Shown piece after piece: positions 1 to 17,300 of a stretch of DNA of 43,579 nucleotides. A program made the translations under genes and the position numbers. The notes beneath the pieces were generated by a model, which was not told the DNA's origin, did no database searches, and was given only the letters and a program-made list of their open reading frames with translations. Position 1 is the first letter of the stretch. Every line of letters begins with the position of its first letter. This DNA is from Synechococcales cyanobacterium bin59.metabat.ball.084 (GTDB taxonomy: Bacteria > Cyanobacteriota > Cyanobacteriia > Cyanobacteriales > Chamaesiphonaceae). The stretch is taken from assembly GCA_013297675.1 (NCBI GenBank), contig JAAFHZ010000017.1:1-43579 (forward strand). Direction: 5' to 3'.

Positions 1-1
1 A

Positions 2-313
2 CCACCAACTTTTAAGTTAGATGGAGCAACAGAAAAAGCCGTATTGAAACAGGCTGTGCAAGATTTACTACCACCCCAAATTATTCACCGGCCCAAAAGT
101 GGCATGATGGTGCCAGTATACATTGGGTTCAAAGATCATTGGAATCGACCAGCGCGCAGACTACTACTAAATAAGAAAGCGGCGATCGCCCCCTATATTA
201 ACTCTGAAGTAGTGAAGAATTGGTTGGATTATCGTGGTGATGCTTGGCGGCGATATGGAGCTAAGCTGTGGCTGCTAGCGAGTTTAGAATACTGGTTGCA
301 GTCTCATCAATGA
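2..313 (+). CDS. asparagine-synthase-like protein, C-terminal part (cut by window edge)
   Basis: The reading frame is open from base 2 to the TGA at 311-313, so the 5' part lies outside the window. The visible 103 residues match the end of the ATP-pyrophosphatase synthetase domain of the AsnB family: a K-x-x-x-L-K-Q-A-V-Q-D-L-L-P-x-x-I segment, then the conserved K-S-G-M-M-V-P stretch and a W-rich tail. The same block occurs in the second asparagine-synthase-like gene at 2852-4582. Family members form amide bonds by adenylating a carboxylate; true AsnB makes asparagine, while homologues act in peptide or glycan modification. The glutaminase half is not visible, so the substrate cannot be guessed. 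Its stop is one base from the stop of the convergent gene on the other strand. Confidence 0.85.
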   Translation, partial: PPTFKLDGATEKAVLKQAVQDLLPPQIIHRPKSGMMVPVYIGFKDHWNRPARRLLLNKKAAIAPYINSEVVKNWLDYRGDAWRRYGAKLWLLASLEYWLQSHQ

Positions 314-314
314 A

Positions 315-1643
315 TCAACCAAATCCACCGCCATCAAAACCGTCGATCGATAACACTCCTTCATCAGACCAAATAGTGAGATCGCCACCGCTATTAAAGT
401 CACTCGATCGGCTAATCGTAATACTGCGCTGTAAGGTTTGGATAAGTTGCTGGGGCGTAAAGCTTTCCAACTCTGCATAGTTACCAGCATCTAGCCAGGT
501 TAACTCAGCCGCAGTAAGGCTCTGACGAGTGGCTGAGGGTAATTCATGAGCGGCACTAGCTGCCGCAGCAGCTTGGCGAATAGATATTTTGTACCGACCA
601 GCGATCGCTTGGCGCGGTAGTAAACCCACATCAATGATTTTAACCGTGGTATCGGGGAACCACCGACTGTCACTCCGCAACCGATGGATCAAATTCACGC
701 CATCAGGGCTAGCATCGTGAAAAGCATATACTATTAAGTCCGGGTTCCGACGCACCATCTCTAAAACGGTATCACAAACATTTTCAGGATAGCCAGTAAT
801 ACTTAAAACAGCACAGTTGTATTCAAAGTGAAAGTGATTTTCTAGCAATATTTGAGCAATGGCTGGTTTATTGCACACGATCAGTCGATCGAAGCTATAA
901 GCGGTTACGGCTGGGTCGGGGGCTGCTGACAAAGTTGCCTGAGGGGCTGGTAATAGTCGATCGATATTGCCATGTACCGCCTGCCACCGTTGCAACCATG
1001 CCATAACTTGGCTGTATTCTACCAAAGAATCTTCCTGAATGTTAGGACTTTTCTTTTGTTGCAAAAATCCCCAGCGAATTATCCACAAACCAGTCAAAAT
1101 TGGCACTCCAAAGCTCATCCAAGATTTGTAAATGATCCCTAGGCCAATTCCACTCAACACCACCATAACTCCTAAAACGTAAAGAAGCATCGTAGCTGTT
1201 TGTCGAGTTGAAGGTCTTGCAGCAGAAGAATTACTAATTTCAAGCAATACAACAGCGCAAACTATATTCAACACGCCCAAAATAATCCAACGGACTTCGC
1301 CTAAAGAAATAGTGACAAATCCGACAAAAATGATGCAAGCCAAACACCCAAACATTGATTTTATGGGGCTTACTCTATTTTTGAGCTTGCGATCAAGTAA
1401 ATAAGCAAACTGTTTAGGAGTAAAAAATAGGGTGCCATTGGCAGAAATAGTTGCCAGTAAATTAGCGAAAAAAGAATCAGTAAATTTCAGATCAATAAAG
1501 GAAACATTGACAGTGGATTCCCTACTAGGTGATTTCATTGTAGTCGGCTCGAAAGCAAAAGCCTGACGACACGATTTACAACGACCCAGATTTGCTTGTC
1601 GATCTTTAAGATTATTATCAGTCTTGCAATTAATACATTTCAT
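315..1643 (-). CDS. zinc-ribbon, multi-TM protein with Toprim-like C-terminal domain
   Basis: A 442-residue protein starting at ATG 1643, nine bases after the stop of the PLP-decarboxylase homologue and so probably in the same transcript. Seen: an N-terminal zinc ribbon (Cys3, Cys6, Cys22, Cys25), a hydrophobic middle with about four transmembrane segments (roughly residues 95-195), then a soluble domain. The soluble part contains L-I-V-C-N-K-P-A-I-A followed about 55 residues later by Y-A-F-H-D-A-S-P-D-G, which resembles the Toprim folds of Spo11/TopoVI-A, although the second acidic residue of the DxD motif is not preserved. The tail is rich in Gly and Asp. I do not recognise a named family. 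The function is unknown and the Toprim reading is an inference. Confidence 0.8.
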   Translation of the reverse strand: MKCINCKTDNNLKDRQANLGRCKSCRQAFAFEPTTMKSPSRESTVNVSFIDLKFTDSFFANLLATISANGTLFFTPKQFAYLLDRKLKNRVSPIKSMFGCLACIIFVGFVTISLGEVRWIILGVLNIVCAVVLLEISNSSAARPSTRQTATMLLYVLGVMVVLSGIGLGIIYKSWMSFGVPILTGLWIIRWGFLQQKKSPNIQEDSLVEYSQVMAWLQRWQAVHGNIDRLLPAPQATLSAAPDPAVTAYSFDRLIVCNKPAIAQILLENHFHFEYNCAVLSITGYPENVCDTVLEMVRRNPDLIVYAFHDASPDGVNLIHRLRSDSRWFPDTTVKIIDVGLLPRQAIAGRYKISIRQAAAAASAAHELPSATRQSLTAAELTWLDAGNYAELESFTPQQLIQTLQRSITISRSSDFNSGGDLTIWSDEGVLSIDGFDGGGFG

Positions 1644-1652
1644 AATTAGTCA

Positions 1653-2861
1653 CTAAATAATTTGGTTTGCCAACAATATTTCAGTGGTTTCTCGCCGCCG
1701 AATCAGCCGATGCATAACAGAATCACCGTTGCCAATAGAGCGATCGATTACCACCTCCGCCGGTCTGGGTCGATGTAAAAAATGCGAAGACATCGCATAG
1801 CCGTAGGCTCCGACATCTAAAATCGCCAGCGTGTCACCAACCTGCAAGGCTGGCAATGGACAACCCTTACCCAAATAATCGCGGGAATAAGTGGTATTAC
1901 CACATACATCTGTATGATAAATCGCAGCGTCATCTAGTTCTGGCACGTCCCGCACCGCCACAATTTGACGATAGCCGCCATGCACTGCCAGCACTGCTAA
2001 ATTTGCCACCGTTGTATCCACACCCACTATTTGCTTATTTCCCTGCCACTTGGTCGCCACCACCTGCGTCAGCAAAGTCCCGCAACCAGCAATTGCCGAT
2101 CGCCCCGGCTCAATTACTAGCTCAATTTTCCGTTTTAGCCGTCCCACTCGTTCCAACAGCACCTCACCAAACAGTTTCCAATCAAACACTGCACTACCTT
2201 GACGATAAGGATAACCAAAGCCCCCACCAAAATCTAAGTATTGCCAGTCCGGGAGCTGAGAACCGATCGATAGCACCATCTCGATCGCCTCAGTAAAAGC
2301 TGCCGTGGCATTAGTGCCCGTTCCGCGATAAAAATGTAGTCCCTGAATTTTGTGGTTCGATCGACCGGCAATTGACACCGCCTCAGCAAACTCTGCTGGC
2401 CGTATTCCAATCCGATTATTACCAGTTAGAGCCGGAAAATTTAACCGCAGACCCAAACGAAAATTGAGATCAAAGCCCTGCGCAGCCTCCGTAAACTGTT
2501 GTAGCTGTGCCAAGCTATCAAAATTCAGGACAGTGACTCCATCATTTAGCACCTGCCGCATTTCTGCCGAATTTAAGTTGCTACCACTATATACAATTTG
2601 GCTAGAACTAAAGCCCGCATGTCTTGCTAAGTAGATATCTCCCGGCGTATTGGCATGTAGACCCCAACCCATTTCCTGAAAAATCTTCAGCAACGATACA
2701 TTTCCATTGGTCACGGCTGCAAAATAGAATGAGGCAGTAGGAATCGCCCGCGTAATCTGCCCAATAGTTTGGCGCAAAACCTCTAAATCATAAACATACA
2801 GCGGTGAACCATAGTTCACCAGCAACTCTTGCACCAAATTCTTAGATAATCTTATTCCCAC
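1653..2861 (-). CDS. fold-III PLP decarboxylase homologue lacking the PLP lysine
   Basis: A 402-residue relative of diaminopimelate/ornithine decarboxylases (alanine-racemase barrel plus C-terminal beta domain). Recognisable blocks are Y-L-D-F-G-G-G-F-G-Y-P-Y (phosphate-binding glycines), I-E-P-G-R-S, V-C-G-N-T-T-Y-S-R-D (the C-E-S-x-D region) and D-V-G-A-Y-G-Y-A-M-S-S-H-F near the C-terminus. The N-terminal Y-A-V-K-A-N-S-N motif that carries the Schiff-base lysine reads F-A-A-V-T-N-G-N, so the lysine position is Val50. The start is GTG 2861, overlapping the end of the asparagine-synthase-like gene by 10 bases, which indicates translational coupling. It is either a non-catalytic homologue or an enzyme with changed chemistry. 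The fold assignment is secure; the activity is doubtful. Confidence 0.88.
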   Translation of the reverse strand: MGIRLSKNLVQELLVNYGSPLYVYDLEVLRQTIGQITRAIPTASFYFAAVTNGNVSLLKIFQEMGWGLHANTPGDIYLARHAGFSSSQIVYSGSNLNSAEMRQVLNDGVTVLNFDSLAQLQQFTEAAQGFDLNFRLGLRLNFPALTGNNRIGIRPAEFAEAVSIAGRSNHKIQGLHFYRGTGTNATAAFTEAIEMVLSIGSQLPDWQYLDFGGGFGYPYRQGSAVFDWKLFGEVLLERVGRLKRKIELVIEPGRSAIAGCGTLLTQVVATKWQGNKQIVGVDTTVANLAVLAVHGGYRQIVAVRDVPELDDAAIYHTDVCGNTTYSRDYLGKGCPLPALQVGDTLAILDVGAYGYAMSSHFLHRPRPAEVVIDRSIGNGDSVMHRLIRRRETTEILLANQII

Positions 2862-4582
2862 GATTTACGATATCTCCATACTTGGTGAGGTACCCAAAAA
2901 GGATGATACCAACTTCGCTCTACTTTGTCATGATCAAGAACTGTCTCGCGCCACAACTGCCAAGAAATCAGTAGCCACAAAATCTCCCCAATCCTACGCC
3001 CCTGAATTTGTCCACCTAGCTCACCCAGAGCCACCCGCATCGCCAAATCAGCTTGAAAACTTCCCTGAGCCGCTAATAAACTGGGATTGAGCCAATGACC
3101 GATCGATCTCCACCATTCTTTTGTACACCAAGCAGTTGTGGGGACTCCCATCCCCCGCTTCTCGCGCCAAACTATTTCAGCAGGCAACAAATCTTCCACC
3201 GCTCGCTTTAAAATATATTTCTCGCAAGCGCCTTTTAAATATAATTCACCATCTAAACCAAAAGTCCACTCGACCAAAGCCATATTACAAAAAGGCGATC
3301 GCACCTTTAAGCCATTAGCCACTGCTAAATTTGTCGCCCGAGGCTGAATATTTTGAGCACCTTTAAGCAAAATGCTGGCTCGCCGCAGTCGATCGAGTAG
3401 TAACCCCTGAGTCAGCCCATCCTGAATCCAATCGATCGGCTGAAATTGTTGAATCTGCTCTAAAAATCCTGGCTGAAACACCCGCTCTTCGTAACCCCAT
3501 AAACGATGAAAAGTTCGTAGATACTGCTGTTCAAAGCTAATGCCAGTCTCATAAACATTGGCAGCAATCAAAGGCTTATTCGTCCAACCAGCAAATAATT
3601 GGTCTCCGCCTTCCCCATTAAAAACAATCTGCACATCTTGGCTTGCAGCCAAATTTAATAAATACAAGGGTGCTGTCACCCCATCACCAAAAGGCACATC
3701 TAAAGCCCGCATTGTTGACGACATCGATCGATAGATCTGCCGGGGGCTAGCATCTACTTTAATTAACGGAATGTTCAAGTGATTGGCCACCTGCTGTGCA
3801 TAAGGATACTCTGATATCCCATGCTGACCAAAGTCTAGAGTGTAAGCAATCACCCTTACCCCAGCTTCTACCAATAATGCGGCCACGATCGAAGAATCTA
3901 AACCTCCAGACAAAAAAACTCCTACTGCTTCGGTGCTTTCCAGATCAGTAATTTGTTGTTTTACCGCCATCCATAATAGTTTTTTCAGCTCGGCAATTAA
4001 GTCTTTTTCGCTGGGCGCTGTTTTGAGAATTTGAGCAGTATTCTGCAACCAAATTTGTTGCTTAGATGTTTCCATTCTTTGCTGCTGCCAAGTAGTGGTA
4101 GTACCAGAGGCAATGGCCGCAATCCCTCGAACTGGACTATATGGAGTGGGAACATAAGATAAGCAACTATAGCCATACAGACCAACTGGATCAACTTCTG
4201 GAGATGATATTAGTGGCAATAAAAGATGTAAGTGGGAAGAAAACCAAATTACTCGATCTATTTTTGTCCAGTAGAGAGTTGAACGACCCAGGATATCTCG
4301 GCCTAAGATTAAACGATGAGCATCGACTATTATCCAGGCATCTTCAGGAGCTAAGCCACTGGCTGATAGAGCAATACGCCCCTTGGTAGTAGTGGTTATC
4401 CAACCACACTCATTAGCAGTCATATGAGATAATTGTCTTTGTAATGTTTCCGCCAAAAAAATTGGTGGACTAGACAACAAACTATCATCTGGCTGATGCC
4501 AGTAACCTAACAACTGCGCTGGTTGATCGCGCGTCTTGGTGGATGCAGAGCAAATTATTTGCCATTGAAAAGAATTAGTCAT
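2852..4582 (-). CDS. asparagine-synthase-like amidoligase without glutaminase cysteine
   Basis: A 576-residue AsnB-family protein. The N-terminal third keeps the class II glutamine amidotransferase outline (L-G-R-D-I-L-G-R-S-T-L-Y-W; S-S-H-L-H-L-L-L-P-L; Y-V-P-T-P-Y-S-P) but starts M-T-N-S-F instead of M-C-G, so the nucleophilic Cys2 is absent. The synthetase domain has the ATP loop S-G-G-L-D-S-S near residue 225 and N-G-E-G-G-D-Q-L-F-A-G-W. Homologues without Cys2 (lasso-peptide cyclases, beta-lactam synthetases) make amides without glutamine hydrolysis. The ATG at 4582 directly abuts the stop of the glycosidase-like gene, and the 3' end overlaps the PLP-decarboxylase homologue, so the set looks like one transcript. 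No lasso precursor or leader peptidase is visible. The substrate is unknown. Confidence 0.88.
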   Translation of the reverse strand: MTNSFQWQIICSASTKTRDQPAQLLGYWHQPDDSLLSSPPIFLAETLQRQLSHMTANECGWITTTTKGRIALSASGLAPEDAWIIVDAHRLILGRDILGRSTLYWTKIDRVIWFSSHLHLLLPLISSPEVDPVGLYGYSCLSYVPTPYSPVRGIAAIASGTTTTWQQQRMETSKQQIWLQNTAQILKTAPSEKDLIAELKKLLWMAVKQQITDLESTEAVGVFLSGGLDSSIVAALLVEAGVRVIAYTLDFGQHGISEYPYAQQVANHLNIPLIKVDASPRQIYRSMSSTMRALDVPFGDGVTAPLYLLNLAASQDVQIVFNGEGGDQLFAGWTNKPLIAANVYETGISFEQQYLRTFHRLWGYEERVFQPGFLEQIQQFQPIDWIQDGLTQGLLLDRLRRASILLKGAQNIQPRATNLAVANGLKVRSPFCNMALVEWTFGLDGELYLKGACEKYILKRAVEDLLPAEIVWREKRGMGVPTTAWCTKEWWRSIGHWLNPSLLAAQGSFQADLAMRVALGELGGQIQGRRIGEILWLLISWQLWRETVLDHDKVERSWYHPFWVPHQVWRYRKSWE

Positions 4583-5797
4583 TTACTTTGTTTTTAGCGT
4601 CTCTGTTCTTTTGCCTAATTCTTTTTCTTTACTAGCAGTTCTTTGAGCAGCAGCACTGCGTAGACTAGCCGCAACAGCTTCAGGATTACCAGCAAAAGGA
4701 AAAATAAAAATACCTTTGATCTTGGGGTTGGCGATCAATTCCGGCAAATGCTGTAGTTGTTTGTCGGTAATCGCGATCCCAGCATTGTCTTCAGCGTAAG
4801 CTAATTCTTCTTGGAAGTTCTTCTCATTGTAGGCTTGAATAAACGCCCGATCGACTTTCCAATTTTTCCAGTCAGCCGCAAAGTAGCGCTTTGACCAGTA
4901 GGGGTTATGGTGACAAATATCGAAGCTGACGTTGGGATTAGCTTGTTTCATTTGGGCAATCATTTCGGTAGCAAATTTAGTGAGCTTGGCGGTGCGATCT
5001 ATTGCTCCTGGTAGCTCGGCATGGTAGGCCAAGTAGTCATCCCACTGCACGGCGTTGATTTTAGGATATTTTTGCACAAACTCTGCCACTACATCTTTAA
5101 AAAGCGTAGCAACTTCTGGGACTTCTACATCTAAAACATAGTGATCGATGCCACTATAGGTTTTGTCTACGCCCGGAACTAGCCAGTTTTTCTGCACAGC
5201 CAGATTGTAAATGGGGCTATTTTTGTCGATCTTAATGCCTTTCTCGAAGTAGGCGTGAACTTCCATGCCTTGCTTTTGAGCTTCATCGATCGTCCAGTTC
5301 AGCCATTGATCTTGAAACAGGTTGGGGCAGCTTGGCTGGTTCAGGAGCTTTTGGGTCACGGCGCTGTTGTACATGGTGCAGCCGTTGCCCCATACCCCAT
5401 GGACAATAGTATTGATACCCTGAGCACGATAATAGCGTACTCGCTGACGAATGACTTGTTCGCTAGCGTTGTTGGTAACAGCATAGCGGCTGAGGTAGAT
5501 GCCGACCATACCTTTGCTGAGTAGGGTTGGGGGTGATGCAGGGGCTATTTTCTTGAGAATAGGTGTAGGCTTGCTAGTGGCAGTTCTGGCGAGGGCATCA
5601 GATAGATCGGGCTGTTGTTCTATGGGCTTTTCAATGGGGGTGGGTTTGGCCTGAGTGAAGAAACTTTGCGGGAGCTTACCAGATTTCATCAACCACCAAC
5701 ACCCGCCACCTAGGGAGCCAAGCACCAACAGGAGCAGGGGAATAATCGGAATGCTGAGGCAGCCGCAGCCTTGGGGTTCGGAGTTTTTACTGGTCAT
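4583..5797 (-). CDS. membrane-anchored GHL10-type glycosidase-like protein
   Basis: A 404-residue protein from ATG 5797; a TTG four codons upstream (5809) is possible. The order is a short Ser/Pro/Gly/Cys-rich head, one transmembrane segment of about 20 residues, a Pro/Thr-rich linker to about residue 90, and then a TIM-barrel-like domain of the bacterial GHL10 (DUF4015-like, 'family 10 glycosylhydrolase') type. Supporting segments are G-I-Y-L-S-R-Y, R-Y-Y-R-A-Q-G-I-N-T-I-V, V-H-A-Y-F-E-K-G, V-Q-W-D-D-Y and G-I-F-I-F-P-F. Such proteins probably act on extracellular glycans, but few have measured activity. It is the first gene of the compact leftward set containing the amidoligase and the PLP-decarboxylase homologue, which hints at work on a cell-surface glycan. 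That link is inferred. Confidence 0.8.
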   Translation of the reverse strand: MTSKNSEPQGCGCLSIPIIPLLLLVLGSLGGGCWWLMKSGKLPQSFFTQAKPTPIEKPIEQQPDLSDALARTATSKPTPILKKIAPASPPTLLSKGMVGIYLSRYAVTNNASEQVIRQRVRYYRAQGINTIVHGVWGNGCTMYNSAVTQKLLNQPSCPNLFQDQWLNWTIDEAQKQGMEVHAYFEKGIKIDKNSPIYNLAVQKNWLVPGVDKTYSGIDHYVLDVEVPEVATLFKDVVAEFVQKYPKINAVQWDDYLAYHAELPGAIDRTAKLTKFATEMIAQMKQANPNVSFDICHHNPYWSKRYFAADWKNWKVDRAFIQAYNEKNFQEELAYAEDNAGIAITDKQLQHLPELIANPKIKGIFIFPFAGNPEAVAASLRSAAAQRTASKEKELGKRTETLKTK

Positions 5798-5859
5798 GAA
5801 GTTGGTCAATGGGTTGCATTTTATTCATTGGTTGATCCAGTTCAAGTATGCCTAATTCC

Positions 5860-6786
5860 TCAGATTCTTGGCTTGCCATGCTCCAAACCAAACCAACTAC
5901 TCGTCGCCATGCCAGCCGCTCTTCCTTGCATCTCTTGCTCCTCTGACCAGCGTAAAACTGCCCGCTGCCCGATCGAACTCTCTAAACTCGAAGACAATAC
6001 CACATCTAACTGGCGCTCTTGAATAAAATCGCCTAATGCTGCCAGCGAACCAGCAATGCAGGGCTTAATCACATAAATCCCTCGCCACCCCTGCTCATAA
6101 CAGTGCCGCAAGCGCCCCAAATTACTGACTAGCTCATCTACCGCCAAAGGCGTATCAAAGCGCTCAGCTAACCGCAGCATTTCAGTCAGACTGGCCACTG
6201 GCTGCTCTAAAAATTCAATAGCACCTGTCGGCAAAGATGATAAGCAAGTACAAGCATCGATATAACTCAGACCAGCATTGGCATCTAGTCGCAGTTTTGC
6301 ACCTTGAGGTAAAGCAGTTAGCAATCGATCGAAAATCACTAACTCTTTCGCTATCTCTGCCACTCCAATCTTCCACTTAAAAGTGCGATAACCCAACTCC
6401 CAAGGTTGTTGCCAAGCCTCTAAAACTTTCTCGCCTGCTGGCAGTAAAAAACTCCAGCTAACATCTGCGCTGATCGGCTCCAACGGCTCATAGCCGTAGG
6501 GAATCGCCGAGCTAAAAGCAAACTGGGTAGCTGGTAACTGATCGGGAACGACCACAGGCCAACATACCGCATCACCCAAAGAAGTACAAAACTCGATCGC
6601 CTGGGCTAAACTCTCTGACCCAAACCAAGGAATCGGGGCAATCTCGCCCCAATAATTTTTCCCGGCTGCATCGATCAACTGAATAATTAAGCCCTCTCGC
6701 ACCGACCATTGACCATGAGCAGTCTGCAACGGATATAAAAAAGGACGCTGATAGCGCCCAAAAGAAAATAGATAGTTACTAGTCAT
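5860..6786 (-). CDS. menC: o-succinylbenzoate synthase
   Basis: A 308-residue enolase-superfamily enzyme that dehydrates SHCHC to o-succinylbenzoate, a step toward phylloquinone, the photosystem I quinone. The capping domain includes G-E-I-A-P-I-P-W-F-G-S-E. The barrel carries K-W-K-I-G (catalytic lysine), R-L-D-A-N-A-G (metal Asp), E-Q-P (metal Glu), V-D-E (metal Asp) and V-I-K-P (second catalytic lysine), all in the family order. The ATG at 6786 gives a normal length. The gene lies 62 bases upstream of the glycosidase-like gene's ATG on the same strand and just after tRNA-Leu; I see no functional link with the downstream set. Confidence 0.95.
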   Translation of the reverse strand: MTSNYLFSFGRYQRPFLYPLQTAHGQWSVREGLIIQLIDAAGKNYWGEIAPIPWFGSESLAQAIEFCTSLGDAVCWPVVVPDQLPATQFAFSSAIPYGYEPLEPISADVSWSFLLPAGEKVLEAWQQPWELGYRTFKWKIGVAEIAKELVIFDRLLTALPQGAKLRLDANAGLSYIDACTCLSSLPTGAIEFLEQPVASLTEMLRLAERFDTPLAVDELVSNLGRLRHCYEQGWRGIYVIKPCIAGSLAALGDFIQERQLDVVLSSSLESSIGQRAVLRWSEEQEMQGRAAGMATSSWFGLEHGKPRI

Positions 6787-6790
6787 GATA

Positions 6791-6874
6791 TGGGGGTGGC
6801 GGGACTCGAACCCGCACAGCCGTTACAACCAACAGATTTTAAGTCTGTCGCGTCTACCATTCCGCCACACCCCC
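6791..6874 (-). tRNA. tRNA-Leu(UAA), intronless
   Basis: Read on the minus strand, the 5' acceptor GGGGGTG (6874-6868) pairs with CACCCCC (6798-6792), followed by discriminator A. The D arm is followed by an anticodon stem-loop ACAGA-CTTAAAA-TCTGT, giving anticodon TAA. A long variable arm follows, then the T arm with GGTTCGAGTCC. The class II structure and A73 fit leucine. CCA is not encoded. The anticodon loop is uninterrupted: the group I intron found at this site in many cyanobacteria and in plastids is absent. It sits between menC and the anti-sigma gene. Confidence 0.95.
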
Positions 6875-6923
6875 AAACACAGGATTCTGATTGTACATTA
6901 TTTTTAGGCAAAATGGTAATTTT

Positions 6924-7763
6924 TTACAAATCAATTTCTTCGCCGCCCATCATCACCGCATCTCCTTCTGGCATCGGAGATTGTTTGGCCGCCTCGATTG
7001 TTACTACCACTGTTTTAGCTGACTGCCATTCTTTCACCGAAACTTTTTGGAATACCTGGCCAGATTTATCGGGCACAAAATCAGCACAGGCCATTTCATC
7101 GTCTCCCATCACTGCCCACATCCGATAGACCTTGCCCTCTGGTAGAGCCGGTACCTTTTGCAGCGCCAACACTGCTGTATCCATGGCTGGAGACATAATT
7201 AAACTGCCAGTAGAACTGCCACCAGCATCCATGCCATTGATCGCCAGTAACTTATTACCAGATTGTCTTAACAACACCTGCTGACTTTGGATTTCTTGCT
7301 GTGCCACCTGCAATTTTTCATCAAACTGTTTTCCAGACTGTTGCATTTCTTGGCGAGCTAATGTCAACTGTCGATCGAGCTGGTAATTTTGCCAACCCAA
7401 AGCAGCCGCTGCCATGGTGGCGATCGAACCCAAACCCCAACCCAGCCAAGGCAAAATCTGATTTTTTAGAGATTGGTGAGTTGGAGTAGCAAGGGTTTGG
7501 GGAACCACAATTTGCTGCCGCATTTGAGCCAAAATTTTTAGCTCTGCGGAGGTTGCCGGAGAACTGGCTACCGATATTGCCGCTACCGGAGCGATTTCAG
7601 CCACCATCGATAAAGCCGCCTGCAACTCTTTTAATTCCTGTTGTGCCGCTGGATTGCTGGCTATATAAGTTTCCGCTGCCGCAGTTTCTGCTGGGGTGAG
7701 ATCACCCAAAACATATCCGGCTATAAGTTCCGACCATTCAACAGGCAAAATAGAAGATTTCAT
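6924..7763 (-). CDS. RskA-type anti-sigma factor (membrane protein)
   Basis: A 279-residue protein immediately after the ECF sigma gene, with a 5-base gap. The N-terminal cytoplasmic part (E-L-I-A-G-Y-V-L-G-D-L-T-P-A-E) matches the anti-sigma domain of the RskA/RslA class. There is no H-x3-C-x2-C zinc motif, so it is a zinc-independent type. One transmembrane segment lies near residues 100-120, followed by a coiled-coil-like Gln-rich stretch and the C-terminal RskA domain, with A-V-L-A-L-Q-K-V-P and G-K-V-Y-R-M-W-A-V. It should hold the sigma factor at the membrane and release it on proteolysis; the signal is unknown. Confidence 0.9.
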   Translation of the reverse strand: MKSSILPVEWSELIAGYVLGDLTPAETAAAETYIASNPAAQQELKELQAALSMVAEIAPVAAISVASSPATSAELKILAQMRQQIVVPQTLATPTHQSLKNQILPWLGWGLGSIATMAAAALGWQNYQLDRQLTLARQEMQQSGKQFDEKLQVAQQEIQSQQVLLRQSGNKLLAINGMDAGGSSTGSLIMSPAMDTAVLALQKVPALPEGKVYRMWAVMGDDEMACADFVPDKSGQVFQKVSVKEWQSAKTVVVTIEAAKQSPMPEGDAVMMGGEEIDL

Positions 7764-7768
7764 AGTAG

Positions 7769-8395
7769 TTACATGAGGTCTTGAAGTAGCGTCTTTAATT
7801 TGAGCAAGCCTTGGCGAGAACGGGTTTTGACTGTTCCCAGTGGAATTTCGAGTTGGTCGGCGATTGTGGATTGGCTAAGTCCGCCGTAGTAGGCCAGTTC
7901 GATTGCCTGCCGCTGTTCGAGTGGAATTTGGGCTAAGGCTGCTCCTACTCGATCGGCTAAAGTCTCTAAATGAGCAGTATCCATTCCAGTAGCTGGGACA
8001 GAATGGGGATGATTTTGCCCATATTGCTCAGCTAGGTTTTGGCGAGATTTGTTTTGGCGCAGCTTGTTGAGCGCCCGCGATCGAGTCACCACTGCCAAAA
8101 AGGTCGAGAGTGCTCCCCGTTGGGGTTCGTACTTATTCGCTCCTTGCCAGAAGGTAACAAACACTTCTTGGGTAAGATCCTCCGCATCATTAGAATTTCC
8201 TAAAATCTTCAGCGCTAGTCGATAGACCATTAGCCCGTATCGATCATAAATTTCACCCACAGCTTTATCATCCCCGGCTTGCAGCGCATTGATCACCACC
8301 AAATCTGGCTGACCTTTCCACCCTGAGGCCATGGGCACAGAGCTAGCTTTGCTGTGAGAGGGAGTGATCGACATGGGGCAAACAAATAAAATCAT
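7769..8395 (-). CDS. ECF RNA polymerase sigma factor (SigK-like)
   Basis: A 208-residue group IV sigma-70. Region 2 has A-V-G-E-I-Y-D-R-Y-G-L-M-V-Y and N-D-A-E-D-L-T-Q-E-V-F-V-T-F-W. Region 4 has I-P-L-E-Q-R-Q-A-I-E-L-A-Y-Y-G-G-L-S followed by the helix-turn-helix L-G-T-V-K-T-R-S-R. It is paired with the RskA-type anti-sigma gene downstream, so the two are almost certainly one regulatory unit. The ATG at 8395 is taken; ATG 8374 (M-S-I-T-P) is equally possible, and neither has a clear Shine-Dalgarno sequence. The pair resembles the SigK/RskA type. The regulon cannot be seen from the window. Confidence 0.93.
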   Translation of the reverse strand: MILFVCPMSITPSHSKASSVPMASGWKGQPDLVVINALQAGDDKAVGEIYDRYGLMVYRLALKILGNSNDAEDLTQEVFVTFWQGANKYEPQRGALSTFLAVVTRSRALNKLRQNKSRQNLAEQYGQNHPHSVPATGMDTAHLETLADRVGAALAQIPLEQRQAIELAYYGGLSQSTIADQLEIPLGTVKTRSRQGLLKLKTLLQDLM

Positions 8396-8523
8396 AATGG
8401 GCGAGGATGATCAAGTTCTATGCCAATCAAAGAATGACCCACCCCAACCTCTAGGTTAATAGAAGGGGTGGGGAAAAGTTTGCTCTTTAACATATGTACA
8501 ATTTTCGATCGACAATGGATTTA

Positions 8524-8569
8524 TCAGATAATAGTAAAAATTCTGTACCTAACTTTTACTATTATCTGA
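8524..8569. repeat. perfect 16-bp inverted repeat between tldE and the ECF sigma gene
   Basis: The left arm TCAGATAATAGTAAAA (8524-8539) is exactly complementary to the right arm TTTTACTATTATCTGA (8554-8569), with a 14-base loop. It lies 38 bases past the tldE stop and about 130 bases upstream of the sigma start, both genes being on the minus strand. No T-run follows on the minus strand, so it is not a classical intrinsic terminator. It could be an mRNA 3'-end stabiliser, an operator ahead of the sigma gene, or the remains of a small mobile repeat. Confidence 0.8.
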
Positions 8570-8606
8570 GAGGACAGATGTTCACAAAACAGAATTGTCT
8601 TCAATG

Positions 8607-9944
8607 TCACAGAGTATAAGTGAAATCCTGAATCAACATTCCCGGCACCCAAGAGCCACCGAGACTGCGACCACCATAGGAATCCATCGTTGCAATATAT
8701 TCACTGAAATTTGTCACGGCTAAGAGATCGTCGCCCCAAAAATCGTATAGGCTGGCATCAAAACGCAGATTTTCGATCGGAGCCACAATTTCGCCATCTT
8801 CCACCCAAAAACAAGCATACCGAGTCATCCCCGTCACCCGTCCCGACTGTCGATCGCTCCAATTTAAGTAGTGTACATTACTCAAATACAGCCCAGTACC
8901 CAACTCTGCTAAAATTTGCTCCTGTGCCAATGTACCCGTAGCTACTACCGGCGATCGAGGAGATTCTTGATCATTTGCTCCATTGGCCGCCTTGCTATAC
9001 TCCCGCGCACTGCGAGAACTCACCAAAGTATTCACCAGCTTACCCTTGGCAATCAGTGGCAATCGATCGACAGCCACCTCTCCCATCTGATTAAACCTAG
9101 GCACCATCCCAGAGGTGAAATCTTCGGTTACTGAAAATAGTGACGATAAATAGTTACCATCCCGCAAAGGAGCCAAACTGCTCTGTCCCTGCTGTAAATC
9201 GGCTTCACTCACCCCACCCCAAGCCAACATATCTACCAAATCAGCCACGGCTGCCGGAGCCAAATAGGTACGATATTTACCCCGCTGAATTGATTTAGGA
9301 GCTTGTTGGAGCCGAGCTAGCTGCTGACGAGATCGATCGATCTGCTGTTGATATTTCTCGGTATCCCACACCGCACCCGCGTAAGCCCCTTTCACCGCCT
9401 GACCATCGGAGGTAAACAAAGAATAATCTAGAGTAAAAGTATCGGCGCTAAACCAATGTTCCTGGCCATTGCGATCGGCATAGCCCCGCAGGTTTACCCC
9501 CGCCGCATAGAGTCCAGTAAAATCTAAACCTTGCACCGCAGCCAAAATAGTTGCCGCCGCTGCATCTGCTGATAACAATTCACCAGATCGATCGCTCACA
9601 CTATGCTCCTGACCAGTAGGCAGCACCAAGTAAGGATCAGGGGAGATTTGAGTGATTTGTCCTCTCAGATCAGCCAGAGCCTGTTGAGCTTGCAGCCGAT
9701 CGATCTCTACTTCCCCCGTGCAAGGAAATTTTTGCCAACAAGTGCGGCCATCTTTAAACAGCTTCAAGGTGCAGCGCACATCCCGCACCGTCCCCGATTG
9801 TCGCACCTGGGAACAGTTGAACCGCGTAAACAAACTATCTTCACCGCTCAAGGTCAATACAAAGCATTCTTCGGTAGTGACGGCCGATCGCAAATCTACT
9901 GCCAACTGTTGAAACCCAGCAAACATTTTGGTATTAAACGACAT
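8607..9944 (-). CDS. tldE: TldE/PmbA-family metalloprotease subunit
   Basis: A 445-residue TldE (PmbA) homologue, the non-catalytic partner of the zinc protease TldD; the heterodimer degrades or trims unfolded peptides and matures some RiPPs. There is no H-E-x3-H motif, as expected for TldE. The C-terminal half has the family's barrel-like region, with R-S-A-R-E-Y, G-L-Y-L-S-N-V-H-Y-L-N-W-S-D and G-E-I-V-A-P-I-E-N-L-R-F. The ATG at 9944 has a strong ribosome-binding site (GGAGGTAAC, 8 bases upstream) inside the end of tldD. The tldD and tldE frames are two bases apart, so the pair is an operon. Confidence 0.9.
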   Translation of the reverse strand: MSFNTKMFAGFQQLAVDLRSAVTTEECFVLTLSGEDSLFTRFNCSQVRQSGTVRDVRCTLKLFKDGRTCWQKFPCTGEVEIDRLQAQQALADLRGQITQISPDPYLVLPTGQEHSVSDRSGELLSADAAAATILAAVQGLDFTGLYAAGVNLRGYADRNGQEHWFSADTFTLDYSLFTSDGQAVKGAYAGAVWDTEKYQQQIDRSRQQLARLQQAPKSIQRGKYRTYLAPAAVADLVDMLAWGGVSEADLQQGQSSLAPLRDGNYLSSLFSVTEDFTSGMVPRFNQMGEVAVDRLPLIAKGKLVNTLVSSRSAREYSKAANGANDQESPRSPVVATGTLAQEQILAELGTGLYLSNVHYLNWSDRQSGRVTGMTRYACFWVEDGEIVAPIENLRFDASLYDFWGDDLLAVTNFSEYIATMDSYGGRSLGGSWVPGMLIQDFTYTL

Positions 9945-9946
9945 CT

Positions 9947-11404
9947 CTAGTTACCTCCAAAAACTTCAACATTAGCGAACGCAGCAACTGGTGAACCATG
10001 ACCCACCCAAATCATCTGATTTGGTTCTCCTTTGCCGCAGTAAGGCGAACCGTAGGTTTTCCAAGTCTCGGCATTGCCCACCGCCACCAAGTTGCCCCAA
10101 AACTTTGGTGTGATATCACGATAGTTAGGATTCCGCAGCGTCTCGGTCAACTGACCATTTTCAATCCGCCTTGCATATTCACAGCCAAACTGAAACTTAT
10201 GCCGCCGATCATCGATCGACCAAGAGCGGTTAGACTCCATATATATCCCTGATTCTACCTGACCAATCACCTCCTCAAAGCTAGCATCTCCCGGCTCCAA
10301 GTTAATATTGGCCATCCGATCGATCGGGGGGCGATTCCAATCACAGGCTCGACTACAAGATACTCCCGGCAAGCCCGATCGAGCCTGACTATCGGCACCG
10401 CCCAAGCCCCGCAGTAGCTGACCGTTTTGAATCAAATATTCTCGTTTGGCCACCGTACCGCTATCATCAAAACCATAGCTGGCAAACTCATCGCTTACCG
10501 TCGGGTCAAAGGTTACATTCATCAATGGTGAACCGTAGGTCAAGTTACCAAAATCACTGGGCTTAATAAAGCTTCCCCCCGCATAGTTGCGCTCATCACC
10601 CAAAATTCGATCAATCTCCAAAGGATGACCAATGCTTTCATGAATCTGTAACAGCATTTGATCGGGATCTAGCACCAAGGTTGTAGTGGTATTCGGACAT
10701 TCTTGGGCGGTGAGCAGTTCCACGGCCTGAGTACCAATCTGCTGTACCCGCGCCCACAAGCTGGGATGATCAAAATAATCCCAGCCCCCCTGATAGCAGT
10801 GACTGCTCATTCCTCCATTGCTGCGAGTTTGGGTAATATTTCCGGCCTGTGCCGTTGCCCCGTAGTCACTGACTAGTAACTGTACCTGCTGATAAATATT
10901 GCTACCGTTGCTGCTCACATAAAAAGTCTCGATTTCTTTGGTGTTCACCATTGCTCTGGTTTGCACGATTTGATCGCTGACTTTCAGGCTCCGACAAATT
11001 TTAATCAGCAATTCATCGATCGCCGCCACCGACAAACTATCTAAAGAGCCAGACTGAGCCGATTGATAATTACCGATGGTTTGAGGCCGTTGAGCGATCG
11101 ACCAAGGATGTACATGGTATTTACTAGTTGCAGTGGCCTGCTGGTGAGCCGCCTGAGCTGCCGCCGCAATCCCTGCCGGAGTCAAGAGGTTGGTGGCACC
11201 ATAACCAATCTGTTCATTTACAATTACTTCTACCATCACTCCAGAGTTGATGGAGTTACCGTTGGTTTGGGGGACACCATCTCGGGCTGAGCGAATGCGA
11301 TCGATCGCTTTCACCCAGCGCAGACCAATCCAATCGGCCTCGATCGGCAGGTCAGCTAAGATTCGATCGAGATTTTCTGGTTGTAAAAGGGCAGTGGCTA
11401 GCAT
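9947..11404 (-). CDS. tldD: TldD-family zinc metalloprotease
   Basis: The catalytic subunit of the TldD-TldE protease. The zinc motif H-E-S-I-G-H-P-L-E is present near the middle, followed by G-D-E-R-N-Y-A-G-G-S-F-I. Later segments D-S-Q-A-R-S-G-L-P-G and G-I-Y-M-E-S-N-R-S-W-S-I-D-D-R-R are typical of the family. The frame is open up to a TTG at 11467, with further ATGs at 11440 and 11431. I take ATG 11404 (M-L-A-T-A-L-L-Q) because the upstream residues look unlike the family's N-terminus, but no candidate has a clear Shine-Dalgarno sequence. It is followed directly by tldE. Confidence 0.88.
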   Translation of the reverse strand: MLATALLQPENLDRILADLPIEADWIGLRWVKAIDRIRSARDGVPQTNGNSINSGVMVEVIVNEQIGYGATNLLTPAGIAAAAQAAHQQATATSKYHVHPWSIAQRPQTIGNYQSAQSGSLDSLSVAAIDELLIKICRSLKVSDQIVQTRAMVNTKEIETFYVSSNGSNIYQQVQLLVSDYGATAQAGNITQTRSNGGMSSHCYQGGWDYFDHPSLWARVQQIGTQAVELLTAQECPNTTTTLVLDPDQMLLQIHESIGHPLEIDRILGDERNYAGGSFIKPSDFGNLTYGSPLMNVTFDPTVSDEFASYGFDDSGTVAKREYLIQNGQLLRGLGGADSQARSGLPGVSCSRACDWNRPPIDRMANINLEPGDASFEEVIGQVESGIYMESNRSWSIDDRRHKFQFGCEYARRIENGQLTETLRNPNYRDITPKFWGNLVAVGNAETWKTYGSPYCGKGEPNQMIWVGHGSPVAAFANVEVFGGN

Positions 11405-12091
11405 GGACAAAAAGAAATTGCAGATTGACATCTTCAACATCCTACAAGAATAGTGATTCCCTATCAAGAAAACAAGGAGAACCCTTCCCTCCGATGTATG
11501 AAGTTCTTACCCTAATATCAAAGCCCTCAAGGGAGATTATGCAAGCTACTATCGCTACCGTATTCGGGACTACAGAGTGATCTGTATCTACAGATGATGA
11601 GCTGATTCAGGTATTTATTATAGCGATTGCCTATTGTGGTAAGGCACATAAACCACAGGAGCAGCTTGATAGTTGTAGTTGGGAAGGGAAATACCGCAGA
11701 ACAGAACCTTTGCAGGGGGTTAAGTAGAGATCTTACATCACAGACTTTTGTGAGGATTTATTGGGCTGTGGTTTGTTGTCGTTCACGAAGTGTCTCTGCA
11801 AAAGAATCGTCTGGTACCTCAAAAAGCTCTAGAGAATAATTGATCGAACCACGGATGCTATTGAGTCAATAACACCTGGATTTTGTATTTTGGATGTGTA
11901 TTGCCATGTATTAGCCTGTTTGGGAAAGATCGTTCCAGTAAGCTGACGGAGCGCTACTATAGTTTTGAGAACTCATTAATCTTCACCAAACTATTCTATA
12001 TAAATGAATTACCGGTTTTGCTAATCCGATGTTTTACGGCTGCTGTTTGAGGTAGAATAAATCCCAAAGTCCCTGCTCCTGGTAAAGTTTG
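11405..12091. other. gene-poor stretch between tldD and the 36-residue peptide gene
   Basis: About 690 bases without an intact gene. It holds the RelE-type toxin relic near its left end. From roughly 11,700 to 11,870 the minus strand has a short open frame (...L-F-E-V-P-D-D-S-F-A-E-T-L-R-E-R-Q) that looks like a fragment but matches nothing I can name. No RNA gene or mobile-element terminus was recognised. The divergent promoters for tldD and for the small peptide gene should lie here, but no clear -35/-10 pair stood out. Confidence 0.5.
11502..11652 (+). pseudogene. RelE/ParE-type toxin relic (frameshifted C-terminal half)
   Basis: One frame from 11502 gives ...I-K-A-L-K-G-D-Y-A-S-Y-Y-R-Y-R-I-R-D-Y-R-V-I-C-I-Y and then stops at TGA 11595. 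Shifting by one base at about 11592 restores D-D-E-L-I-Q-V-F-I-I-A-I-A-Y-C-G-K-A-H-K. Together these are the diagnostic C-terminal core of RelE-family mRNA-cleaving toxins (L-K-G...Y-R-x-R-x-G-D-Y-R-V-I-Y, then V-x-x-I-x-H-R). The N-terminal half is missing and no antitoxin gene is recognisable next to it, so it is a dead fragment. The shifted frame runs on to a stop at 11728. Confidence 0.75.
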
Positions 12092-12202
12092 ATGCCTAAC
12101 GAAGAAGTACTTAATGCTATTGCTGGCGGTCTGGCGATCGTAATTTCGATCGGAGGAATTTTGATGATGTTTACCGATACTTTTACCAGAAAGAAGCGAT
12201 GA
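12092..12202 (+). CDS. 36-residue single-pass membrane peptide
   Basis: ATG 12092 to TGA 12200-12202. It begins M-P-N-E-E-V-L-N-A-I, has one hydrophobic helix of about 18 residues (A-G-G-L-A-I-V-I-S-I-G-G-I-L-M-M), and ends in a basic tail T-R-K-K-R. Acidic head, single helix and basic tail form a pattern shared with many tiny subunits of cyanobacterial photosynthetic and NDH complexes, but it is not one of those I know by sequence (PetN, PetM, PsbI, PsbM, PsbT). The ribosome-binding site is weak. It is convergent with the HD-GYP gene, with 21 bases between the ends. Conservation in other cyanobacteria would settle whether it is real. Confidence 0.6.
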   Translation: MPNEEVLNAIAGGLAIVISIGGILMMFTDTFTRKKR

Positions 12203-12223
12203 TTTTTGGCTGAAATGAGTGGT

Positions 12224-13936
12224 CTACAAAGAATGACCAACTACTCGATAGATTTGTTGTTGTTCAAAGAGATCCAACAAGTCGGCATTGATTTTGTGAG
12301 ATTCGGCTTCCTGGCGCAGGATTGAAAGACTGCGATCGATCGAGAACTTGGGCTTATAAGGTCGATCGTTGGCAGTCAAAGCATCATAAATATCGGCGAT
12401 CGCCATCATTTGAGATTGAATTGGAATCTCCGCAGCTTTGAGTCCACGAGGATAACCGCTGCCATTTAGCTTTTCGTGATGGGCACCAGCAATTTCGGGC
12501 ACATTTTGCAGATTTTTTGTCCAGGGAATCTGCTTCAGAAAATCGTAGGTATGCACCACATGGGCTTCGATCTGTTTTCGTTCAGCCAAAGTTAGGCTAC
12601 CGCGCGGAATCATGAGCTGATCAATCTCCGTAGCCGTCAAAACAGGCCGAAAATGGCCTTGAAAATCAACATACTGCCATTGAGATAGCTCCTGTAGATC
12701 GTGGCTAATAGATTCGATGCTATCTAGCAAACCGGGGACAAAATTCACTTGAGGGTTATCTAGTCTTTTTACTAATTCCCAATGTTGATGCAACCGATCG
12801 AGCTTAGCTTGCAACTCCATATCCAAAAGCTGCTGTTGGTGACAGTGGGGACAGTCATTGGCCTGGTGGGGAATTCCCATTTGAAACTTAGCTTGAGCAC
12901 AGCCTAGCTGCCATTGACTTTGCAAAATCGACAAGCGCTGCTCGATCGACTGAAGCTGCGCCGGATAAAGTTTGCGCTCTTTACCCAAGATCGCTTCTGG
13001 CACACCCACCTTGCCAAAATCATGGAGCAGCGAAGCATAGCGAATTTCTTGCAACTGTCGATCGGTAAACAAGATCGAGCCAAGGCTGCCAGCCGTTGCA
13101 TGATGAGCGGCCTGAGCTAAACTCACGGTCAAATCAGCGACTCGTTCAGAATGTCCGGCAGTAGGCGGATCGCGGGATTCAATTACTTGGACAGCGGCGC
13201 GGATAAATCCAGCAAATAGGTTCTCGATGCTTTCTTGCAGGTGATTGCGCTCGATCGAAATAGCCGCTTGAGAAGCTAATGCGGTAATAATTTGTTCTTC
13301 CCAAGTCGAATAGCTCTGGGTAGCAGTAATTCCATTGGCCTGAGAAATCTTGATATCTGGCTGCTGCTTGCGATTGATTAATTGTAATACCCCGATCGTT
13401 TCACCTTCTTGGTTCTTCATGGGCAATACCAGCACCGAGACAGTGCGATAGCCAAAATCTCGATCGAAGCTGGGATCAATCCGGTAGGGTAACGATGCAT
13501 CTAGGCTATAGGCATCAGTGATATTTAAGCTTTCACCAGTGCTGGCCACGTAGCCCGCCAAGCTTTGGGTGGTAAGAGAAATCCGGGACTCTTGGAAAGA
13601 AGTGATTGGCAAGGAGTCATTTTGAGCGACTTTGAATACCAAGTCTGGAGCAAAATTTGATCGATCGACCAAGTAAACACTGCCTGCGTCACTGCAAGTA
13701 ATTTGGCGACTGCTGGCCAAAATCATCTGTAACAGCTCAGCCAGATTATGGCTACCCGAAAGTGCTTGGCCAACTTCTAGCAATTGGCCAACAATGGTCG
13801 ATTCGGTAGATCTGCTGGTCGATCGACGATCTGCTGAGGTAATCGGGCTAGCAACAAAGTTTTCCACTAAATTGGCTTTACTTGAAGAGGACAACTGGTT
13901 AGATAGAGATCTCTTAAGCCGATTTACCTGGCTCAT
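12224..13936 (-). CDS. GAF plus HD-GYP-type phosphodiesterase with inserted segment
   Basis: About 570 residues from ATG 13936 (a TTG at 13951 is the alternative). A GAF sensor domain spans roughly residues 50-230. An HD-type hydrolase follows: H-S-E-R-V-A near 265, L-L-H-D-F-G-K-V-G-V-P-E near 308, then H-V-V-H-T-Y-D-F-L, A-H-H-E-K-L-N-G-S-G-Y-P-R-G-L and A-D-I-Y-D-A-L-T-A-N-D-R-P-Y. The H-H-E-x2-N/D-G-x-G-Y-P signature identifies the HD-GYP family, which usually hydrolyses cyclic di-GMP. Between the HD motif and the next metal histidine lie about 150 residues instead of some 35, including a C-P-H-C-H knuckle. It overlaps the DUF3082 gene end by 23 bases, suggesting co-transcription. Confidence 0.9.
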   Translation of the reverse strand: MSQVNRLKRSLSNQLSSSSKANLVENFVASPITSADRRSTSRSTESTIVGQLLEVGQALSGSHNLAELLQMILASSRQITCSDAGSVYLVDRSNFAPDLVFKVAQNDSLPITSFQESRISLTTQSLAGYVASTGESLNITDAYSLDASLPYRIDPSFDRDFGYRTVSVLVLPMKNQEGETIGVLQLINRKQQPDIKISQANGITATQSYSTWEEQIITALASQAAISIERNHLQESIENLFAGFIRAAVQVIESRDPPTAGHSERVADLTVSLAQAAHHATAGSLGSILFTDRQLQEIRYASLLHDFGKVGVPEAILGKERKLYPAQLQSIEQRLSILQSQWQLGCAQAKFQMGIPHQANDCPHCHQQQLLDMELQAKLDRLHQHWELVKRLDNPQVNFVPGLLDSIESISHDLQELSQWQYVDFQGHFRPVLTATEIDQLMIPRGSLTLAERKQIEAHVVHTYDFLKQIPWTKNLQNVPEIAGAHHEKLNGSGYPRGLKAAEIPIQSQMMAIADIYDALTANDRPYKPKFSIDRSLSILRQEAESHKINADLLDLFEQQQIYRVVGHSL

Positions 13937-14216
13937 CTTTGCTAAAGGCAATTTTTACTGCCAAGACTATTAATCCCAAACTAATGATGCCAAACACACT
14001 CATGCCCAAAGCTGTCATGCCAGTGACCAGGGTACGCACAGCGATCGAGATATTTACCGCCGCTTGGCTTTTGTTGCTAACCGGAGTACGGGCAAAGGAT
14101 ATGGCGATTTTGCTGGTGAGCAAATACATCATAAAAGCCATCACACCAGCGATCGCTGAGCCAGTCAGACAGCGTAAAGGAGTAGGTAAGGGAACTTGAG
14201 GGGTTGATTCTGTCAT
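13914..14216 (-). CDS. DUF3082-family membrane protein
   Basis: A 100-residue protein with two hydrophobic helices: a first around residues 18-42 (G-S-A-I-A-G-V-M-A-F-M-M-Y-L-L) and a second around 63-90 (V-T-G-M-T-A-L-G-M-S-V-F-G-I). A short Lys/Asp/Glu-rich C-terminus follows. The pattern fits the cyanobacterial and plant DUF3082 family, whose function is unknown. It starts at ATG 14216 and its end overlaps the start of the HD-GYP gene, so the two are probably in one transcript. Confidence 0.75.
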   Translation of the reverse strand: MTESTPQVPLPTPLRCLTGSAIAGVMAFMMYLLTSKIAISFARTPVSNKSQAAVNISIAVRTLVTGMTALGMSVFGIISLGLIVLAVKIAFSKDEPGKSA

Positions 14217-14354
14217 GAGGAAGCGGGGAGTGAATCAATGATTTAGCCTAATTCTAAGATATGAGGTGGCCTCTCGAAGATCTGTGATGTTGCCAAAAGC
14301 TCTGGGGTGTTTGATAATGCCAAAGGTGTTAACTAATCTTTACGAAAACATTAA

Positions 14355-15431: not shown

Positions 15432-15454
15432 AATTCTGATTAAATATTCGAGTT

Positions 15455-15480
15455 AATCCTGCTTTCGGGCAGGATTTTTA
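15455..15480 (+). terminator. intrinsic terminator after desB
   Basis: Stem AATCCTGC (15455-15462) pairs with GCAGGATT (15469-15476) around a 6-base loop and runs directly into a T tract. It lies 24 bases past the desB stop on the same strand. Confidence 0.85.
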
Positions 15481-15607
15481 ATAGTTAGATATTGATGAGA
15501 TTCATCAGTCGAAAATGTCATGAGCAGCAAAATACGTTATTTTGGGAAATGATCGGTGCTGAAAATAGCGCCAACAAATTTTGGATATCACAGCAGCAGG
15601 TCAGAAC

Positions 15608-16981: not shown

Positions 16982-17054
16982 AACACCATAAATCATTAAA
17001 TTTCTAGAAAAGTCTAGCAGGGAAAATTTAACTACAGTGCCCAATCTGGATTTT

Positions 17055-17300
17055 TCACAGTTGATTATTTTGAGGCTTAAATGAGCGACCAGGTCGCTCT
17101 AAACTATCACTACGTCGGTTATTACAAGGGAAACAGGCCAGTCGCAGATTTTCTAGTTTGTTAGAGCCGCCACGACTGCGAGGCTTAAGATGATCGAGCG
17201 TTAGCTGAGCAGGCGGGAAGGCTTCATGACACCAATAGCAGCATGGTCTATTCTTTCTTAATAAGCGAATGCGACGATCTCTTTTTTGCTTAGTTTTCAT
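17055..17300 (-). CDS. small HNH endonuclease
   Basis: An 81-residue protein. Two C-x2-C zinc pairs (C-Y-W-C and C-F-P-C) bracket the HNH core L-T-L-D-H-L-K-P-R-S-R-G-G-S-N-K-L-E-N-L, with the invariant histidine, asparagine and N-L in place. The N-terminus is strongly basic (K-T-K-Q-K-R-D-R-R). Such stand-alone HNH proteins are frequent in cyanobacteria and their targets are generally unknown; no intron, intein or restriction partner is adjacent. The ATG at 17300 follows a short spacer after the threonine-phosphate decarboxylase homologue on the same strand. Confidence 0.9.
   Translation of the reverse strand: MKTKQKRDRRIRLLRKNRPCCYWCHEAFPPAQLTLDHLKPRSRGGSNKLENLRLACFPCNNRRSDSLERPGRSFKPQNNQL

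Follow-up and report, generated by a model that had tools for sequence, protein, structure and literature searches.

The window, by which we mean the whole stretch of 43,579 nucleotides analysed here (Synechococcales cyanobacterium bin59.metabat.ball.084, contig JAAFHZ010000017.1), raises the question of what a homologue of the fold-III PLP decarboxylases may do once the lysine that forms the internal aldimine is missing. Starting with GTG, the 402-aa open reading frame at 1653-2861 (minus strand) has both Pfam domains of ornithine/DAP/arginine decarboxylases (PF02784 and PF00278), and its nearest curated family is the LysA equivalog TIGR01048, with a score of 238.5 bits that lies below the cut-off of 297.9; its score of 114.5 for the XrtA-associated decarboxylase family TIGR03099 is also below the curated cut-off (478.45). 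An AlphaFold model built from a 35-sequence input reached a mean pLDDT of 85, being weak at residues 220-222 and 356-362, and the top PDB matches found by Foldseek were LysA structures (best 2p3e, TM 0.79). Domains and fold are thus those of a fold-III PLP decarboxylase, as the original prediction had it, and its further claims that the gene is intact rather than decaying and is coupled to an amidoligase agree with the conserved, open-frame orthologues and with an overlap of 10 bases (2852-2861) between the gene and the stop of the upstream amidoligase. We considered whether the protein (hereafter the Lys-less protein) is an ordinary LysA under another name; this was rejected by its motifs and by the TIGR01048 cut-off, and an ordinary Lys-bearing LysA with a YASKAWN motif is separately present in the same genome (L003). 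In public records, genes of this kind are called 'decarboxylase', 'alanine racemase' or 'diaminopimelate decarboxylase', annotations for which their sequences offer no support. The gene and the parts of its product that matter for the question are as follows.

1653-2861, minus strand: fold-III decarboxylase homologue lacking the lysine, 402 aa (PF02784, E 9.7e-24; PF00278, E 1.1e-15)
2712-2714, minus strand: GTG codon of Val50, at the PLP-lysine column
2655-2657, minus strand: His69, where Lys-bearing relatives have the catalytic Asp/Glu
2316-2336, minus strand: HFYRGTG (residues 176-182), replacing HxHxGS
2214-2228, minus strand: GGGFG phosphate loop (212-216), kept
2100-2111, minus strand: EPGR (251-254), kept
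1878-1895, minus strand: TTYSRD (323-328), replacing the catalytic xCExxD block
1785-1811, minus strand: GAYGYAMSS (351-359), with the phosphate-site Tyr kept

Val50 lies within FAAVTNGN (codon 2714-2712, GTG), and HMMER alignments to 2p3e, 3n2b and 2j66 match it to the lysine in the motif of YAVKAN type, which confirms the position assigned to the PLP lysine in the original prediction. A scan of GTDB genomes yielded 36 loci, 35 of which cover the lysine site (the remaining locus, L038, is broken and does not reach it), and Val occupies the column in all 35. In a second set, 27 of 292 Cyanobacteriota genomes matched the profile of the Lys-less protein (E <= 1e-60) and 25 of these, including the window's own genome, have Val, while the other two are a copy that has lost the site by deletion (L065) and an ordinary LysA with Lys (L066); the two counts are not independent because the genome collections overlap. 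The check proposed in the original prediction, namely whether orthologues share the K-to-V change, therefore goes against Val being peculiar to this strain, and a mutation or assembly error in one strain was rejected. Thirty-four orthologues have open frames with 58-65% identity and a fixed Val; L037 and L038 are each broken over two frames and were left out of the alignment of the window plus these 34. Within that alignment V50, T51, N52, H69, Y178, R179, T323, T324, Y325 and R327 are invariant. The most conserved lysines of the protein are K271 (35/35), K276 (34/35) and K332 (31/35); considering that K271 and K276 align with lysines in the C-terminal part of ordinary LysA and are therefore inherited, and that K332 is not fixed, a substitute aldimine lysine was rejected. 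With Val in all site-covering orthologues and Met in two rhizobial relatives described below, ordinary internal-aldimine chemistry at the lysine position, ruled out in the original prediction, is excluded by the sequence. In the deleted copy (L065 1501-3360), the C-terminal half is what is left of the Lys-less protein, fused to the upstream amidoligase by an in-frame deletion, and the phosphate loop is one glycine short.

The remainder of the active site was compared in an alignment of 25 rows, 15 Lys-less and 10 Lys-bearing (L083 being represented by its first 420 residues and L079 by its matched part only), with the catalytic and cup roles of the aligned residues presumed to be those of T. 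brucei ODC. The lysine column contains Lys in 10/10 Lys-bearing rows versus 0/15 Lys-less rows; its Asp/Glu partner is likewise present in 10/10 versus 0/15 (His in 13, Phe in one and Cys in one), and so is the catalytic Cys, which is replaced by Thr in all 15. The residue after the Cys column is Tyr, His or Phe and is followed by SRD in every Lys-less row, giving the pattern (T)(Y/H/F)SRD. The catalytic Cys and Asp/Glu partner of fold-III PLP decarboxylases are hence both missing from the group, while its phosphate and pyridine cup is preserved, GGG, EPGR and GAY being found in 15/15 Lys-less rows; the original prediction was accordingly correct in regarding the glycine loop, the E-P-G-R block and the C-terminal GAYGYAMSS as kept (212-216, 251-254 and 351-359). 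Tyr replaces the second His of HxHxGS in the Lys-less clade, a change that means nothing alone because it is also present in three Lys-bearing XrtA/BtrK-like rows. A tree of the 25 rows separates the Lys-less rows from the others by a branch supported at 100/99, or at 99/97 when the four active-site blocks are removed, although both trees contain several long branches that were flagged by the tree program itself. Judged from the alignment and tree, the joint change of four catalytic columns in a supported branch is beyond chance, and it looks like a coordinated, ancient loss of the lysine and its partners that most simply happened once. In the window-plus-34 alignment, 39 of 42 motif or pocket positions are invariant versus 79 of 348 elsewhere, a contrast that is indicative but somewhat circular, since part of the conservation was known when the columns were picked from the motifs. 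Few other parts of the protein are as conserved as the former active site; a mere scaffold is therefore less likely and an empty pocket is disfavoured.

Comparison with known systems points to LysA (TIGR01048; PDB 2p3e and 1knw) as the nearest in both sequence and structure, sharing the fold, GGGFG, EPGR and GAYG, whereas the Lys-less protein is devoid of the Schiff-base Lys, the catalytic Cys and the Asp/Glu partner and scores below the family cut-off. The decarboxylases of the BtrK/XrtA type (2j66 and 7ru7; TIGR03099) share HxYxG(S/T) in place of HxHxGS, but those in our alignment (L081, annotated as XrtA-associated, L083 and L084) keep Lys and Cys, unlike the Lys-less clade. The XrtA setting also has a model of an asparagine-synthase-like amidotransferase (TIGR03108), just as the Lys-less locus has an amidoligase; the one XrtA cluster that we examined contains an acyl carrier protein and an AMP-binding protein, and no counterpart of the membrane protein found beside the Lys-less gene (see below). 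Antizyme inhibitor is an inactive homologue within the ornithine decarboxylase family, an animal regulator of antizyme with a presumably separate origin, and its structures (PDB 3btn and 4zgz) match the Lys-less protein weakly. PLP-fold enzymes in which the lysine is replaced are represented by the PMP-dependent 3-dehydratases ColD/E1 (PMC8987622), which have an aminotransferase-type fold (ASAT superfamily) and His at the lysine site; the Lys-less protein has a LysA fold and Val or Met there, so that the His-for-Lys replacement of this enzyme type is absent. Our search of the open-access literature found no papers on the Lys-less gene or its cluster, a weak negative as subscription papers fall mostly outside its scope.

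The distribution of the Lys-less gene extends beyond typical cyanobacteria. Two relatives with 42% identity and Val at the lysine column (L063 and L064) come from two Cyanobacteriota genomes, G010 and G044, that yielded no photosynthetic reaction-centre protein at completeness of 91% and 95%, respectively, the second genome having 7% contamination. A plasmid search revealed two rhizobial relatives, in Mesorhizobium huakuii (L071 9962-11155) and Sinorhizobium meliloti GR4 (L080 9941-11047), whose lysine column is occupied by Met (FATMAN); they are annotated as 'alanine racemase' and 'diaminopimelate decarboxylase', and each is located directly after two radical-SAM genes and not beside amidoligases. 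The loss of the lysine thus seems to extend to rhizobia as well as to Cyanobacteriota that lack a photosynthetic reaction centre. Carriage by phages was rejected: 20 phage records matched the protein, all with less than 60% identity (23-31% for the 10 matches listed, among which the three annotated ones are named diaminopimelate decarboxylase), and the viral contig collection yielded no confirmed relative.

The genes around the Lys-less gene may bear on its role, and those within the window are the following.

315-1643, minus strand: T, a protein with a zinc ribbon (CxxC...CxxC), four long helices, a TopoVI-A/Spo11 Toprim-like domain and a disordered tail
318-323, minus strand: C-terminal Phe-Gly codons of T, the ending of 64/65 complete family members
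2852-4582, minus strand: AsnB-A, an asparagine-synthase-like amidoligase without the N-terminal glutaminase Cys (PF00733, E 1.4e-53)
2-313, plus strand: C-terminal end of AsnB-B, a second amidoligase, convergent and truncated at the contig start (PF00733, E 4.5e-16)

Neighbour counts were obtained by scoring profiles of five families around the 36 GTDB loci. T lies downstream of the Lys-less gene in 31 of the 32 loci with at least 1 kb of sequence there, AsnB-A upstream in 26 of 34 (in broken pieces in L006) and a protein of about 210 aa, here called M, upstream in 28 of 34, again among loci with at least 1 kb on that side; M matched DUF3859 below its cut-off in one of two proteins scanned. 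AsnB-B is found downstream in 21 of the 28 loci with at least 4.5 kb and was not found in the other 7. The adjacent amidoligase, taken from this locus to be a partner of the Lys-less gene, is therefore not its constant companion, AsnB-A being present in 26/34 loci versus 31/32 for T, the most constant neighbour. Whole-genome searches of nine genomes whose loci have no neighbouring AsnB-A detected a copy elsewhere in four (E about 1e-257 to 1e-285) and none in five at E <= 1e-60, including three MAGs and one complete genome, Arthrospira PCC 9108. In the window, both T and AsnB-A adjoin the Lys-less gene, and a gene other than M lies upstream of AsnB-A. Gloeothece verrucosa PCC 7822 carries the set of five genes on a linear conjugative plasmid (L070 9440-16258), where a protelomerase gene lies nearby. 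Within positions 1-9000 of the window, Rfam detected only one tRNA and no other RNA element; this tRNA (6791-6874, minus strand) overlaps a predicted plus-strand ORF (6790-7128), which is therefore probably not a gene.

Co-occurrence was assessed in the same draw of 292 genomes, by listed labels, with thresholds of E <= 1e-20 for T and E <= 1e-60 for the Lys-less protein. T was detected in 29 genomes and the Lys-less gene in 26, all of them among the 29; these 26 are the 27 matches mentioned above minus the LysA of G035, and one of them (G123) carries the fused copy. In the three T-only genomes (G004, G018 and G038, which share family code f33 with G010), T adjoins AsnB-B and its FG end is kept (L100, L101 and L102), and the Lys-less gene was not found in them, their best profile matches being ordinary LysA with Lys, Asp and CES. 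T and AsnB-B thus make up the core, to which the Lys-less gene is an addition.

Both amidoligases lack the nucleophile of glutamine-dependent asparagine synthetases and have the adenylating part. An N-terminal Cys (MCGI-type start) is absent from 20/20 AsnB-A rows and 19/19 AsnB-B rows, while the adenylating loop is present in all of them, as SGGLDS in AsnB-A and SGGxDSS in AsnB-B; the window's AsnB-B fragment groups with the AsnB-B of 21 other loci. In AsnB-A, the match to GATase_7 is partial and below cut-off, as is, with respect to its cut-off, the match to TIGR03108; in the two AsnB-B proteins scanned, a remnant GATase domain scores above cut-off and lacks its first 10-18 positions. In the deep relative from G044, the AsnB-A ORF starts with MSGICGW, with Ser at the expected place of the glutaminase Cys. 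The asparagine-synthetase-like ligases TsrC, ScdTA and PesC, which have the adenylating synthetase domain in common with AsnB-A and AsnB-B, modify the C-terminal carboxylate of peptides (PMC13060819). Glutamine is the nitrogen source of PesC, whereas AsnB-A and AsnB-B lack the N-terminal cysteine. A known defence system was also considered and rejected, PADLOC returning one match, QueC for AsnB-A, for five proteins scanned.

T matches PF21180 (E 3e-6), and its four long helices are putatively membrane-spanning. The AlphaFold model of the window's T has a pLDDT of 81, and its last 27 residues (416-442) fall below 50 and are predicted to be disordered; the best Foldseek matches are TopoVI-A/Spo11 proteins, with whole-chain TM values of only 0.23-0.29 because one domain, the Toprim part, matches. 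After a linker that varies in length and sequence, 64 of 65 complete members (57 of 58 distinct tails) end in Phe-Gly, the lone exception (L032) ending in QKC; this count omits open-ended ORFs, fragments (profile end <400) and tails at assembly gaps, and includes some genes twice. Tandem T genes occur in L025 (three intact, 11222-15277) and L022 (one intact plus a broken run, 11182-17735). Outside Cyanobacteriota, one relative of T was found among plasmids, in Streptomyces sp. NBC_01237, as three tandem T-like genes (L103 5228-8588), none of whose products has a terminal FG. The ORF that follows (L103 8692-9228) encodes a small protein with a Gly/Asp-rich tail ending in DDDFG, and about 100 bases after it there is an AsnB-B homologue with 40% identity (L103 9329-11101); no Lys-less gene was found within this 28-kb stretch. 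An HDAD (DxD-type) motif is present in two of the three Streptomyces copies and in 0/22 rows of the T alignment (22 T sequences from 20 loci plus the window). The plasmid collection contains two records at least 40% identical to AsnB-B among the 15 matches listed of 153, the other 13 having at most 30.1% identity.

Taken together, these results show, as far as sequence comparison can, that the fold-III (LysA/ODC) family includes an ancient clade from which the Schiff-base lysine and other catalytic positions were lost and in which the phosphate and pyridine cup was kept. In cyanobacteria, its rebuilt pocket has been almost invariant since the loss, and the gene travels with T, the disordered tail of which has Phe-Gly-COOH at its end, as well as with one or two asparagine-synthase-like ligases that lack the glutaminase Cys. 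What the Lys-less protein does we infer from these features. Our preferred reading, which we put forward tentatively as a serious candidate, is that it serves as a ligand-binding subunit of an amidoligase system and works without an aldimine, with the Phe-Gly end of T as the likeliest ligase target. Under this reading the ligand, bound in the absence of an internal aldimine, would bear a phosphate, resemble PLP/PMP in shape or be an amino-acid-like amine, and the protein would act as an accessory, specificity or donor-holding subunit; the Phe-Gly end is suggested as the target by its position, its invariance and the persistence of such a tail beside AsnB-B when carried by another protein. A narrower form, which we consider rather improbable in its entirety, is C-terminal conjugation or amidation in which AsnB-B would adenylate the Phe-Gly of T and, in Cyanobacteriota, the Lys-less protein would hold or select the amine to be joined. 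Several observations weaken the subunit reading: the rhizobial genes adjoin radical-SAM genes and not amidoligases, AsnB-A was not found in 5/9 genomes, nor AsnB-B downstream in 7/28 loci, and the three Streptomyces T-like proteins, which do not end in FG, weaken the role proposed for the tag. Moreover, the occurrence of T and AsnB-B without the Lys-less gene in 3/29 genomes and in the Streptomyces stretch implies that it is not needed for the core.

Among the alternatives, an enzyme of new chemistry that uses PLP or PMP non-covalently, with Tyr178, Arg179, Thr324, Tyr325, Arg327 and His69 as catalytic residues, is a lesser possibility that still deserves weight: the cup residues are kept, the polar pocket is near-invariant and ColD/E1 (PMC8987622) provide a precedent for a PMP enzyme with a replaced lysine. 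However, these precedents have His, whereas Val or Met offers no proton-transfer group at that place, and the Cys and Asp/Glu are lost too. It is unlikely, though only slightly more so, that the protein is instead a regulatory or structural pseudoenzyme resembling antizyme inhibitor, pairing with or displacing a partner (e.g., the LysA of its own genome or AsnB-A) with its pocket empty; the kept fold, the presence of LysA in the same genome, the overlap with AsnB-A and the existence of catalytically dead paralogues as regulators, such as the trypanosome AdoMetDC prozyme (PMC5201418), would fit, but an empty pocket does not explain why few regions are as conserved as the former active site, and rhizobial genes in another context share the loss. 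A still PLP-dependent enzyme that takes its aldimine from a lysine elsewhere would agree with the preserved PLP contacts; nevertheless, we regard it as very unlikely, given that K271 and K276 are ordinary C-terminal lysines of LysA, K332 is found in 31/35 and the Cys and Asp/Glu partners are lost as well. Gene decay or sequence error, for which the deletion fusion L065 and the frames of L037 and L038 could be cited, has a negligible probability against 34 open-frame orthologues with a fixed Val. The original prediction had offered a regulator, a scaffold or an unusual enzyme; the conserved active site makes the scaffold less likely, and a neofunctionalised ligand-binding protein or a new kind of enzyme remain. 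By its motifs, the protein is not an ordinary PLP-dependent decarboxylase, nor is it likely to be an inert scaffold.

On the evidence of its orthologues, the absence of the lysine is real and deeper than first claimed, being neither decay nor the mutation of one strain. The absence of the aldimine lysine throughout a branch that extends over two phyla provides a clean natural test of what a PLP fold is capable of when its cofactor is not covalently bound. What surrounds the Lys-less gene suggests a ligase system whose C-terminal Phe-Gly tag is portable, on which the open-access search likewise found no papers, and the place of the gene in cyanobacteria beside ligase-like genes and a membrane protein nearly always ending in FG hints at a protein-modifying system that has not yet been studied.
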